A stretch of 64,000 nt of DNA from Vagococcus xieshaowenii (lineage in GTDB: Bacteria > Bacillota > Bacilli > Lactobacillales > Vagococcaceae). How positions within the stretch are numbered: the stretch's first letter is position 1; the number at the start of each line of letters is the position of its first letter. The position numbers and the translations under genes were made by a program. Positions 5,512 through 10,077 of this stretch are shown in pieces. Location: NCBI RefSeq assembly GCF_004792515.1, contig NZ_CP038865.1:704001-768000 (forward strand), in the 5' to 3' direction. The notes beneath the pieces were generated by a model that was not told where the DNA came from, did no database searches, and worked only from the letters and a program-made list of their open reading frames with translations.

Positions 5512-5524
5512 TAATTTATTAAGT

Positions 5525-5615
5525 TTTCTAGGGTTCCGCATCGATGATGGACTGGTCCGAGTGAAAACGCGCAAATAATAATTTGCGTCACACGGAAGGA
5601 CAAAATCCTGGGAGA
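5525..5615 (+). promoter_or_regulatory. Guanidine-I riboswitch (ykkC class)
   Basis: The conserved core of the ykkC/guanidine-I class is readable: CTAGGGTTCCG, ACTGGTCCGAGTGAAAAC, then CACACGG and the AAAATCCTGGGAGA block. Such RNAs bind guanidinium and switch expression on. The 3' part of the aptamer (from 5603) is shared with the 5' arm of the terminator that follows, which is the expected switching arrangement. The two genes downstream are SMR proteins of the guanidinium-exporter type, matching the ligand. Confidence 0.93.
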
Positions 5616-5649
5616 AGATTGTGTAAGCAGTCTTTTCCTAGGATTTTTT
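5603..5649 (+). terminator. Riboswitch-controlled terminator
   Basis: AATCCTGGGAGAAGATTG pairs with CAGTCTTTTCCTAGGATT (several G-U pairs), followed by a T run. Its 5' arm overlaps the conserved 3' end of the aptamer, so ligand binding should prevent its formation. Confidence 0.88.
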
Positions 5650-5674: not shown

Positions 5675-6007
5675 GTGAACAAGAATTGGTTAATGATTTT
5701 AGTGGCAGGAATTGTCGAAGTAGGATGGGTGATAGGGTTAAAACATTCTAGTAACTTATTAGAACATTTATTAACAATTATCGCTATTTTTATGAGTTTT
5801 TATTTACTAATTAAGGCTAGCCAACAATTGGCTGTGGGAACTGCGTATGCAGTATTCGTAGGGATTGGGACAACAGGTACTATCTTAATGGATACGTTAT
5901 TATTTGGTAGTTCTTTATCAGTGATTAAAGTATTATTGATTGTCTTGTTATTAGTAGGGGTCATGGGACTTAAAGTATTGAGTGATCATTCGGAAGGAGG
6001 GCATTAA
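5675..6007 (+). CDS. ykkC: SMR-family guanidinium exporter subunit
   Basis: A 110-residue four-helix small multidrug resistance protein. The first helix carries the essential glutamate in GIVEVGWVIGLKHS, the signature of the Gdx/SugE-type guanidinium exporters rather than EmrE. It probably works as a heterodimer with the product of the next gene, which overlaps it translationally, exporting guanidinium in exchange for protons. GTG start with AAGGAGG about ten bases upstream. Control by the guanidine-I riboswitch fits this role. Confidence 0.9.
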   Translation: MNKNWLMILVAGIVEVGWVIGLKHSSNLLEHLLTIIAIFMSFYLLIKASQQLAVGTAYAVFVGIGTTGTILMDTLLFGSSLSVIKVLLIVLLLVGVMGLKVLSDHSEGGH

Positions 6008-6008
6008 G

Positions 6009-6323
6009 ATGGCATGGATGTATTTGATTTTAGCAGGTTTATTTGAAATGGTAGGCGTTTCTTTAATTAATAAATTTAATAATGAAAAATCATGGCAATC
6101 TGTCTTGTATTTATTGATAGGATTTGGTGCAAGTTTTTACTTTTTGAATTTAGCAATGAATGAGATTACTATGGGGACTGCTTATGCTATCTGGACGGGT
6201 ATTGGTGCTGCTGGCGGTGCTGTCATGGGGATGTTATTTTATGGTGAAGCTAAAGATTGGCGAAGAATTATTTGTTTATTCTTAATTATCGGCTCAGCAA
6301 TTGGGTTGAAATTAGTTTCTTAA
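6009..6323 (+). CDS. ykkD: SMR-family guanidinium exporter subunit (partner)
   Basis: A 104-residue four-helix SMR protein with Glu in the first helix (LAGLFEMVGVS). The start is the ATG at 6009, preceded by GGAGG inside the end of the first gene; the longer upstream frame is not used. Paired SMR genes under a guanidine riboswitch normally form a two-component exporter in the cytoplasmic membrane. The stop is followed by the next gene's own promoter. Confidence 0.9.
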   Translation: MAWMYLILAGLFEMVGVSLINKFNNEKSWQSVLYLLIGFGASFYFLNLAMNEITMGTAYAIWTGIGAAGGAVMGMLFYGEAKDWRRIICLFLIIGSAIGLKLVS

Positions 6324-6959: not shown

Positions 6960-9593
6960 TTATAAGAGTTCACCGTATTTTTTGATATAGAAATGTTTAA
7001 CAATCGTTACCAATAATAAGTAAGCAATAACGGTTACTACTAACCAAGTCCAATAGTTTCCTGGCAGTGGTGCTAGGTCTAAGTTTGTGCCAAAAGAAGT
7101 AAACGGTAAGATAGTTCCTACCAAGATACCTAGTGTGGTAATTGTCGTCATAATAAATGACGCATTACTTTGTAAGAATGGGATTTTTGGTGTTCTTAAT
7201 GCGTGAAGCACCAGCGTTTGTGTCCACAGAGATTCTACAAACCAACCCGCATGGAATAAAGCAATAAAGCCGACTTTTTGCACGGGATCAAGTGAGGCAT
7301 ATGACCCACCCATAACTTGTGGGCAAATGACGTAAAACATTAGAATAAAGGTAGTAATATCAAAAACCGAACTAGTTGGACCAAACCAAAACATAAATTT
7401 ACCAATACTTGATGCGTCCCATTTTTTAGGTTTTTCTAAATATTCGTTATCCATTTTGTCCCAAGGAATTGAAATGCAAGATAAATCATAAATTAAATTT
7501 AAAAATAAAATTTGAATAGGTAGCATAGGAATGAAAGGTAACATTATACTAGCAGCTAACACAGAAAACATGTTTCCAAAATTTGAGCTGGCAGTTGTCT
7601 TAACGTATTTCATAATATTTCCAAAAATTTCTCGACCAGATAAGATACCTTTTTCTAACACCATTAAATCTTTTTCTAGCAAAATAACATCGGCACTCTC
7701 TTTAGCGATATCGACAGCTGTATCGACAGAAATACCCACATCAGCTTCTTTCATCGCTGCCGCATCGTTAATACCATCTCCCATGAAGCCAACTGTATGG
7801 CCATTCTCACGTAATAGTTTGACTAACTGTGATTTTTGGGTAGGATTTAGTTTGACAAAAATATGATGTGTTTCGATAATTTCTTTCATTTCAGTTTGAG
7901 ATAATCGTGAAAGCTCATCACCTGAAATGATCGTATCTATTTCTAATCCGACTTGTTGGCACACGGTTCTAGTTACTAATTCGTTATCTCCGGTAAAGAC
8001 TTTGACCCCAACACCGTGTTCTTTTAGTGCTTGGAGAGCCGCTTTTGTTGTTTCTTTTGGTGGATCTAAGAAGGCTAAGTAACCGATTAAGACCATCTCA
8101 GATTCGTCTTTTATAGAAAATTCTCCTTCAACACTTGGATTTGTTTTTTGAGAGACGCCTAATACGCGCATACCATCTCGATTTAAATCTTCTACTTTTT
8201 CTAAAATATTACGACGTTCTTCCTCGGTAATCGGTACGATGCTATTGTTATATTCAACATATGAAGAGATGGCTAACATTTCTTCAATAGCTCCTTTAGT
8301 AATCATTTGACGTTTGCCTGATTGATCTTCCATGACGACACTCATACGACGGCGTTCGAAATCAAAAGGAATTTCATCGACTTTTGTATAGTTAAATGAA
8401 GTAAGATCTAATTGCTCCTTAGCGCCTTCAATAATTGCTACATCAAGCAGATTTTTAAGCCCTGTTTGATAGTAACTGTTTAAGTAGGCATGTCGTAAGA
8501 CACGATCGTCTTCTTGCCCATTACAGTCTAAATGATATTCAAGAATAATTTTATCTTGTGTTAATGTTCCTGTTTTATCGGTACAAAGAATATCTATTGC
8601 ACCAAAATTTTGAATGGCATTTAGATTTTTGATGATCGTTCCTTCTTTGGCCATCTTGTTAGACCCTTTAACTAAGTTGGTGGTGACAATCATCGGTAAC
8701 ATTTCAGGTGTTAATCCGACCGCTACAGATAACCCAAATAAAAATGCTTCCATCCAATTATTAATGGTAATCCCGTTAAGGATGACAACTAGAGGTGCCA
8801 TCACTGCCATGAATTTAATCAAGAGCATAGAGGTCTTGTTAATACCAATTTCAAAGCTTGTTTGTACAGGTTTTTCAGCTAGGCTATCTGCTATTGAACC
8901 AAACATTGTGTTATTACCAGTTGCGATCACAATTGCTTCAGCGCTACCACTGATAACGTCACTTCCCATGAAAACTAAATTGTCATAAGAAGTATCACTT
9001 TGAGGCTCATGAATAATAGTATGAGCGTTTTTTTCAACAGGATAGCTTTCACCTGTTAGAGAAGATTGTGAAATGAATAAGTCTTTACTATTAATTAGAC
9101 GTAAATCAGCAGGAATCATATCACCTGCGGCTAACCTAATCACATCACCGCAAACAACTTCTTCAATGGGGATTTCGTTATAAGTCCCGTCTCTTTGAAC
9201 ATTGGTGGTGACTTTTACAAGCGATTTTAATTTCTCCGCAGCTTTGCCTGATTTAACTGATTGAATCAAGGTCATTGTACCACTAACTAATACCATTAAT
9301 GTGATGATAAATACCCCAAATAAATCACGTTCTTCAGGTGCAGCTAAGACAAAATCTGTAATAAATGAAATAATTGCCAATGTAATTAATACAAGGGTAA
9401 ATGGTGTAATATAAGCTTTAACAATTTCTACAATGAAAGGTGTTCTTTTACCATGTGATAGAATATTTTCGCCAAATGTCTCACGATTTAGTTCAACATC
9501 TTTAGTATGTAAACCTTTGGGAGAACTGTTTAAACGCTTGAATAGTTGGGTAATTGTCTCTGTTGCAAATTCTAAATAATTTTTTTTTGTCAT
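6960..9593 (-). CDS. mgtA: Mg2+-importing P-type ATPase (MgtA/MgtB type)
   Basis: An 877-residue P3B-type ATPase. Order of parts: N-terminal cytoplasmic segment, two helices, actuator domain with LTGES, membrane helices with the GLTPEMLP segment characteristic of MgtA, phosphorylation site Asp339 in [10 protein letters not shown], nucleotide domain, hinge with [17 protein letters not shown], and six C-terminal helices. It imports Mg2+ into the cytoplasm at the cost of ATP. The M-box riboswitch, terminator and short leader ORF in its 5' region (9598-10060) indicate induction under Mg2+ limitation. A GAGG site at 9602-9605 lies eight bases before the ATG. Confidence 0.95.
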
Positions 9594-9597
9594 AATG

Positions 9598-9774
9598 ATT
9601 TCCTCTTTTCTATAGGTTCTCTTTAAATGAGAGCATGTTGTATGAGGAAATTATGAAATAGAAAAGGTTATAACAGGCGACAGCTAATGAAATAGTGCGC
9701 CCGTAAACTAGGTGGTTCCTCTTTAAGTGTCATAATTTCCTGCTCAGATTGACTATCGTCCATTAGTGTCGCCT
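9598..9774 (-). promoter_or_regulatory. Alternative RNA pairings in the mgtA leader
   Basis: Four segments of the minus-strand RNA are mutually complementary. In transcript order: B' (9767-9774, beside the leader ORF ribosome site), A' (9730-9741, inside the leader ORF), B (9675-9682, end of the leader ORF) and A (9645-9656). B' with B gives 8 perfect pairs and A' with A gives 12; the two helices interleave. In addition 9644-9651 can pair over 8 bases with 9598-9605, the mgtA ribosome site. So segment A can bind either the leader ORF or the mgtA ribosome site. That these compete in vivo is an inference. Confidence 0.6.
9668..9763 (-). CDS. Leader ORF upstream of mgtA (31 codons)
   Basis: Encodes a 31-residue peptide starting MDDSQSEQE, followed by IMTLKEEPPS and ending in SCRLL. 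The start has the best ribosome site in the region: AAGGAGG at 9772-9778, eight bases from the ATG. It lies after the M-box terminator and 74 bases before mgtA, so it is transcribed only when the riboswitch allows. It is neither hydrophobic nor signal-like. Its acidic start and the EEPP motif resemble nascent sequences known to destabilise the translating ribosome at low Mg2+ (as shown for the MgtL leader in enterobacteria). A regulatory role is inferred, not shown. Confidence 0.7.
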   Translation of the reverse strand: MDDSQSEQEIMTLKEEPPSLRAHYFISCRLL

Positions 9775-9790
9775 CCTTTTTTTTGTATAG

Positions 9791-9822
9791 AAAAAGCCCT
9801 TCGCTAAGGCTCAGCGAAGGGC
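9791..9822 (-). terminator. M-box controlled terminator
   Basis: On the minus strand GCCCTTCGCT pairs with AGCGAAGGGC (10 perfect pairs, seven-base loop), followed by TTTTT. It lies between the M-box aptamer and the leader ORF and is the expected expression platform for Mg2+-induced termination. Confidence 0.9.
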
Positions 9823-9884: not shown

Positions 9885-10060
9885 ACGGCTATTGATCTAG
9901 TCGTTGAGCTTTAGCACTATACAACGTAAAAAACATTAACGTTTTTAGCTACCTTATGAAAAGCCTTATTTCGACAATTCCTGTTCTACCCATTGGCGTC
10001 TTTCGACATTTTTGGGCAGTAGCCTATGTTTGTATAGGAGCCTCACCTAACAAATATTTT
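9885..10060 (-). promoter_or_regulatory. M-box (ykoK) Mg2+ riboswitch
   Basis: Read on the minus strand, the conserved M-box blocks appear in order: GTTAGGTGAGGCTCCTATAC, then ATAGGCTACTGCCC, GTCGAAAGACGCCAATGGGT, AACAGGAATTGTCGAAATAA, GGCTTTTCATAAGGTAGCT. The class senses Mg2+ and terminates transcription when Mg2+ is sufficient. Gene, terminator and aptamer agree on Mg2+ homeostasis. Limits are approximate. Confidence 0.93.
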
Positions 10061-10077
10061 ACTTTCATCTACAACTT

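Follow-up and report, generated by a model that had tools for sequence, protein, structure and literature searches.

A candidate ribosome-position attenuator behind the M-box riboswitch of mgtA in Vagococcus xieshaowenii and other Bacilli

Sequence analysis and RNA-folding computations established a short leader open reading frame (ORF) upstream of the magnesium-transporter gene mgtA in Vagococcus xieshaowenii. The ORF is constrained at the protein level, has an acidic N-terminus that recurs in many genera, and overlaps three alternative RNA helices, with a predicted dependence of mgtA accessibility on the position of the ribosome. On balance, we favor the interpretation of this leader as a ribosome-position attenuator that adds a second layer of control behind the M-box riboswitch. 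Rather than a free-standing peptide sensor, the leader is part of an RNA helix switch placed behind the M-box, which is itself a Mg2+ sensor. In Gram-positive bacteria, Mg2+ control of these transporters has so far been attributed to the M-box. If the proposed second layer is real, the Mg2+ pump would be made only after serial checks on free Mg2+ and on ribosome state, and the strategy known from MgtL and mgtQ would have arisen in another phylum. An earlier note on this DNA, which had proposed Mg2+ sensing by the ribosome itself from the composition of the leader peptide, did not mention the upstream M-box or RNA pairing through the leader ORF; its observation was confirmed and its interpretation was partly supported.

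Locus organization and coding constraint on the leader ORF

The analyzed window comprised 64,000 nt of the V. xieshaowenii genome and carries, in this order on the minus strand, an M-box, its terminator, a leader Shine-Dalgarno (SD) sequence, the leader ORF, and mgtA. The M-box (ykoK) Mg2+ riboswitch aptamer (9889..10061, minus strand) matched Rfam model RF00380 with 157.7 bits (E 3.4e-36), above the gathering score. Between the aptamer and the leader ORF lies the M-box intrinsic terminator (9786..9822, minus strand), with a stem of 12 pairs (9822-9796) followed by the U tail TTTTTCTATA. The strong SD sequence of the leader (AAGGAGG; 9772..9778, minus strand), identified from the sequence and retained in sister species G003, precedes an ORF of 31 codons (MDDSQSEQEIMTLKEEPPSLRAHYFISCRLL; 9668..9763, minus strand). 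The start of mgtA (6960..9593, minus strand) follows the end of the leader stop codon by 74 nt. A transcription terminator between leader and mgtA was considered and rejected for the window species, since none was found on the minus strand. The M-box and the leader are carried by one transcript, on which the upstream M-box senses Mg2+ by transcription termination, whereas the leader, located after the M-box terminator, is a separate element that requires translation and is not part of the M-box. Because of the way in which M-box terminators work, the leader ORF is expected to be transcribed only if the M-box lets RNA polymerase through.

Two further riboswitch loci were observed. A guanidine-I riboswitch (RF00442, 81.4 bits; 5517-5616, plus strand) precedes two overlapping ORFs (5675-6007 and 5982-6323, plus strand) that presumably encode small multidrug-resistance-type proteins, forming a guanidinium exporter pair. 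A second M-box of the same genome, located outside the window (L002; 680987-681159, minus strand), is followed by a leader-like ORF beginning MDQSHSNDTSGPAITTKES and then by a gene whose product is, by appearance, a GNAT acetyltransferase and no transporter. This second M-box and its leader-like ORF may be the remnant of a locus whose transporter gene has been lost.

Translation of 9668-9763 yielded the peptide described in the earlier note, with an acidic start and EEPP at residues 15-18 (9710..9721, minus strand); its acidic residues occupy positions 2, 3, 7, 9, 15, and 16, of which the conserved pair D2-D3 is encoded at 9755..9760 (minus strand). The product of mgtA, a magnesium-translocating P-type ATPase, matched NCBIfam TIGR01524 with 1122 bits (cut-off 610.75), consistent with the claim that this transporter is of the same type as enterobacterial MgtA. 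Protein-level constraint on the leader was examined by comparison with the sister species, which belongs to the same genus (MgtA 85% identical) and retains the ORF as MDDSQSEQEIMTQKEKPPS... In a gapless alignment of codons 1-19, differences affected 6.5 of 9 synonymous and 2.5 of 48 non-synonymous sites (pS 0.72, pN 0.05; Fisher p 2.5e-5), while the two shifted frames of the same alignment showed no synonymous excess. This excess, confined to the coding frame, indicates that codons 1-19 are under protein-level selection. Beyond codon 19, the peptide diverges freely between the two species.

Alternative helices and computed effect of ribosome position

The leader region folds 3.6 standard deviations below shuffled sequences, and pairing computations on the minus strand delimited five segments. 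Segment 1 (9752..9774) extends from the leader SD through the start into the first codons and forms a helix, 1:3 (E -27.3, z -4.1), with segment 3 at the leader end (ACTATTTCATTAGCTGTCGCCT; 9675..9696). Segment 2 (AGGAAATTATGA; 9730..9741), spanning codons 8-12, is complementary at 12 of 12 positions (p 0.007) to nucleotides 9656-9645 of segment 4 (TCATAATTTCCTCAT; 9642..9656), which lies past the leader stop. As an anti-SD element, segment 4 can instead pair with segment 5 (GAGGAAATCATTATGA; 9590..9605), the SD and start region of mgtA (helix 4:5; E -13.4, p 0.02). Helix 2:4 interleaves with 1:3 and is in competition with 4:5, since both need segment 4. The folding model was pseudoknot-free and ignored co-transcriptional timing, and simultaneous formation of 1:3 and 2:4 would create a pseudoknot beyond its scoring. 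The sister species retains helix 1:3 through changed arms, GGCGACA/TGTCGCC being replaced by GGCGAAG/CTTCGCC. Among 34 clade representatives, pairing was stronger than in shuffles (p<0.05) in 26 for 1:3, 13 for 2:4, and 7 for 4:5, the last being significant in few clades beyond the window genus. Combined p-values of 6e-30, 1e-9, and 2e-5, respectively, are overstated, as the representatives are not fully independent.

The following mechanism is proposed. At low Mg2+, the M-box would let RNA polymerase past the terminator and the leader would be transcribed. Without a ribosome, segment 1 would pair with 3 and segment 4 with 5, and mgtA would be closed. A ribosome held on, or restarting repeatedly at, D2-D3 would cover segment 1 and leave segment 2 free, and formation of 2:4 would then release segment 5 and open mgtA. 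Smooth elongation past codon 5 would cover segment 2, so that 4:5 would re-form and mgtA would be closed again. The acidic start would act as a destabilizing or pausing element on which ribosomes linger or abort at low Mg2+ and from which they run on when Mg2+ is adequate.

For the predicted effect of ribosome position, each codon in turn was taken as the P site, a footprint from -14 to +15 around it was blocked, and the cost of freeing the SD and start of mgtA was computed. In the window species, this opening cost was 8.3 kcal/mol without a ribosome, 2.9-3.6 kcal/mol with a ribosome at codons 1-3 (3.0 on D2-D3), 11.4 kcal/mol at codons 8-20, and approximately 2.8 kcal/mol at codons 26-30 near the leader end. 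Corresponding values for the sister species were 6.9 without a ribosome, 2.2-2.5 early, 9.7 mid-leader, and approximately 2.0 at the leader end. The difference between mid-leader and D3 positions in the window species was 8.4 kcal/mol, against -0.4 ± 1.1 in shuffles, and was reached in 0 of 40 of these. Across the 34 representatives, the difference between mid-leader and 'on' positions (codons 1-3 in the window species) was significant (p<0.05) in 23, and that between the ribosome-free and 'on' states in 16. In locus L126, where the acidic motif occurs later (codons 5-9), the computed open zone is also shifted, to codons 4-8. In the model, this locus links the switch to where the acidic codons lie; no other single result is as informative. 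Loci of this kind, which differ in the codons occupied by the acidic motif and by the switch zone, provide a natural test set for the effect of early acidic residues on Gram-positive ribosomes. The EEPP motif, to which the earlier note had drawn attention, reads EKPP in the sister species and is not kept outside the genus, whereas the early acidic residues persist. A ribosome positioned on this motif was computed to keep mgtA closed, and EEPP was rejected as the functional core.

The open state computed for a ribosome at codons 26-30 implies that slow termination at the leader end is a further way in which mgtA could be opened. Segments 3-5 allow a terminating ribosome to open the gene directly at this cost of approximately 2.8 kcal/mol, and this would suffice for a leader that is translated but has no sensing role and merely couples or insulates by keeping the transcript beyond the M-box occupied by ribosomes. 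We regard such a function as very improbable in view of the specific computed zones, closed at codons 6-22 and open at codons 1-3, both missing from shuffles, and of the exchange of the last helix for an intrinsic terminator in other families, which fits an attenuator. This exchange was seen in loci from Bacillaceae and Paenibacillaceae, where a second intrinsic terminator lies between leader and mgtA in place of the final SD-masking helix. In most such loci that were read, the 5' arm of this terminator is complementary to leader codons around 17-21 (CAGAGGGAGA and variants), and in some genomes the two sides have changed in pairs (UGAGGGAG/CUCCCUCA versus CCAGAGAG/CUCUCUGG). The effect of ribosome position was significant in 3 of the 9 loci tested from these families, and the same switch with a transcriptional output is likely there, if less firmly supported than the translational version.

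Leader ORFs upstream of mgtA in other Bacilli

Orthologs of mgtA were found in 218 of 395 Lactobacillales genomes and in several other genomes of Bacilli that are Bacillaceae- and Paenibacillaceae-like (family names are our reading); named records among these relatives include Enterococcus villorum, Fundicoccus ignavus, and Lapidilactobacillus bayanensis. An M-box was detected at the Rfam gathering score in 19 of 20 loci tested, streptococcal ones included. DNA homology searches with the leader were reliable only as far as the sister species, and two candidate homologs, L040 and L041, were rejected as chance matches to a ribosome-binding-site-like stretch. Leader starts upstream of Lactobacillales mgtA include MDDS, MDES, MEDS, MDDG, MDDH, MGDDP, MSGDDP, MEEE, and MEDEP, and loci taken as streptococcal have M(I)QIDDHPEPH. 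Bacillaceae- and Paenibacillaceae-like leaders start with MDDSSSS, MEDGHS, MEGSPS, MDSSPS, or MDGSPS (type M[DE]xS) and are often acidic at residue 2 alone (MDGSP, MEGSP). The expectation that acidic positions are kept while other residues vary was thus borne out across Lactobacillales and in part in Bacillaceae and Paenibacillaceae, where often a single acidic residue is left. As many leader ORFs had been picked by eye, the choice was repeated by SD strength alone, blind to composition. The ORF with the best SD then had at least two acidic residues in codons 2-6 at 74 of 136 loci, compared with 0 of the 36 larger genes of the window that served as background. What is conserved in the leader is its start, M-[DE]-[DE]-S or, in streptococci and paralogs, of the [D/E]xP type. 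An acidic start is not obligatory, because leaders without acidic residues (MVKRCILL) occur in two lineages and some loci lack a clear leader. The former are very short ORFs, MVKRCILL or a close variant, found with a strong SD at the leader position of L090, L093, L094, L101, L103, and L104; a similar mini-ORF, MVKSWI, precedes the acidic leader of Fundicoccus locus L033.

Other variations in locus structure were also observed. Between leader and mgtA, loci L065, L070, L078, L089, L033, L091, and L092 encode a small single-span membrane protein (approximately 28-42 amino acids, e.g., MSELTIFLLFLGVGCFLWGIFYGKKVKKNDRKK), which may serve MgtA as a small partner subunit in the manner of MgtS or KdpF; this conserved gene is missing from the window. 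Several genomes have a second copy of mgtA (L105-L110), and there the leader ORF (V/M-P-E/D-D-S-S...) runs into the start of the transporter gene, an arrangement that suggests translational coupling in place of the three-helix switch.

Conservation of the leader start (ATGGAYGAYAGT) might reflect RNA alone, with this stretch serving as an arm of helix 1:3 and the acidic residues as a by-product. The Ser4 codon is AGT in 56 of 62 leaders and codons 1-4 lie within helix 1:3 in most clades, which indicates that N-terminal conservation acts partly at the RNA level, mainly through this helix. In L057, L074, L036, and relatives, the late leader motif TTATCTATTTGTTT is preserved as nucleotides while the frame in which it is read differs (LLSICF, YYCLFVS, IIYLFSAP), a pattern that favors a function of this motif as RNA. 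However, the acidic pair at codons 2-3 is encoded by nine different codon pairs, with D and E codons free at the third position and D interchanging with E, and the streptococcal DDHPEPH shows only synonymous variation in 13 genomes although HPEPH lies outside the main 1:3 stem. These patterns argue that the peptide is constrained as well, so that both levels are under constraint at the leader start. The strong synonymous excess over codons 1-19 of the window pair, which extends well past segment 1, likewise speaks against a purely RNA-based origin, which we consider improbable. A local start-codon hairpin (GGAY-GNNA-GUCC) was rejected as the sole cause of MDDS, as it occurs in some leaders but is missing from others that retain the acidic residues.

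Mg2+ as the sensed variable and comparison with known systems

We infer that the leader is translated in vivo, that ribosomes pause or drop off at D2-D3, and that Mg2+ is the variable sensed; in Bacilli, Mg2+ would then be what moves the ribosome. The broader reading that ribosome-sensed Mg2+ is widespread in Bacilli is put forward tentatively, at somewhat less than an even chance. According to this reading, an N-terminal acidic leader motif arrests or delays the ribosome when Mg2+ is low, in series with the M-box of the same transcript; it evolved independently of MgtL and mgtQ and has a translational output in Lactobacillales and a transcriptional one in Bacillaceae and Paenibacillaceae. The same tentative reading includes a two-sensor gate, in which free Mg2+ is read by RNA and ribosome-bound Mg2+ by the ribosome. 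Alternatively, the attenuator may be real but report a state other than Mg2+, such as initiation or elongation capacity, EF-P, charged-tRNA supply, or ribosome-targeting stress, leaving the M-box as the only Mg2+ sensor. The computed switch reads ribosome position whatever holds the ribosome, and early prolines (MDDSP, MEGSP, DDHPEP), together with the PP at residues 17-18, could report on proline or EF-P. In the same operon family of Salmonella, a passage of PMC8092293 that cites other work links the ORFs mgtM and mgtP to ATP and to tRNA-Pro charging. Yet many leader starts are free of proline (MDDSSSRQ, MEDSEQKK, MDDSQSEQ), acidity is the commonest shared feature, and a location behind an M-box and before mgtA points to Mg2+; reporting of a different state is therefore judged rather unlikely.

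The literature searched, which comprised few subscription papers, contained no account of an mgtA leader peptide from Bacilli, although this does not prove absence. Within that literature, a second layer of Mg2+ control of this kind has so far been described only in enterobacteria. In translational attenuators of the ermC type, stalling of a leader ribosome by an antibiotic shifts the helices so that the main gene's SD is exposed. The proposed switch shares the logic of a held leader ribosome that rearranges helices and frees an SD; in ermC-type systems, however, the trigger is the antibiotic-stalled ribosome, and target and peptide are unrelated.

The E. coli and Salmonella mgtA leader MgtL acts via a Rho-dependent terminator, and ribosome drop-off alone induces (PMC11282234). 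Acidic residues within roughly the first 30 positions pause or destabilize E. coli ribosomes (PMC11282234). The window locus likewise has a leader ORF with an early acidic and proline-containing composition upstream of mgtA, and ribosome behavior at low Mg2+ is likewise proposed to raise mgtA expression. Unlike in MgtL, its ribosome-free default state would be off, and the predicted pairing points to SD masking (an intrinsic terminator in Bacillaceae and Paenibacillaceae) as the output, rather than Rho-dependent termination. The leader peptide gave no family match in NCBIfam and is too short for a homology test against MgtL; nothing obvious is shared beyond composition, in agreement with the earlier note, and its proposal of convergent evolution is likely to be correct.

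Salmonella mgtQ is an 8-codon ORF between mgtC and mgtB in which D2 and E5 matter; a ribosome on its region 1 leads to an anti-anti-SD helix that frees the SD of a Mg2+ P-type ATPase gene, thereby acting on translation (PMC8092293). Similarly, the window leader is short, with a strong SD and early acidic codons, and its acidic ORF is overlapped by helices that exclude one another; one of these masks the transporter gene's SD, which the switch would free. It differs from mgtQ in its 31 codons and in the inclusion of the leader's own SD in helix 1, and no sequence relation was seen. Because it is a 5' leader behind an M-box and does not lie between mgtC and mgtB, it is not classified as mgtQ itself. 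In the model, mgtA is opened by a ribosome that stays on the early codons and not by complete loss of the ribosome, which places the predicted switch logic closer to Salmonella mgtQ than to E. coli MgtL with Rho.
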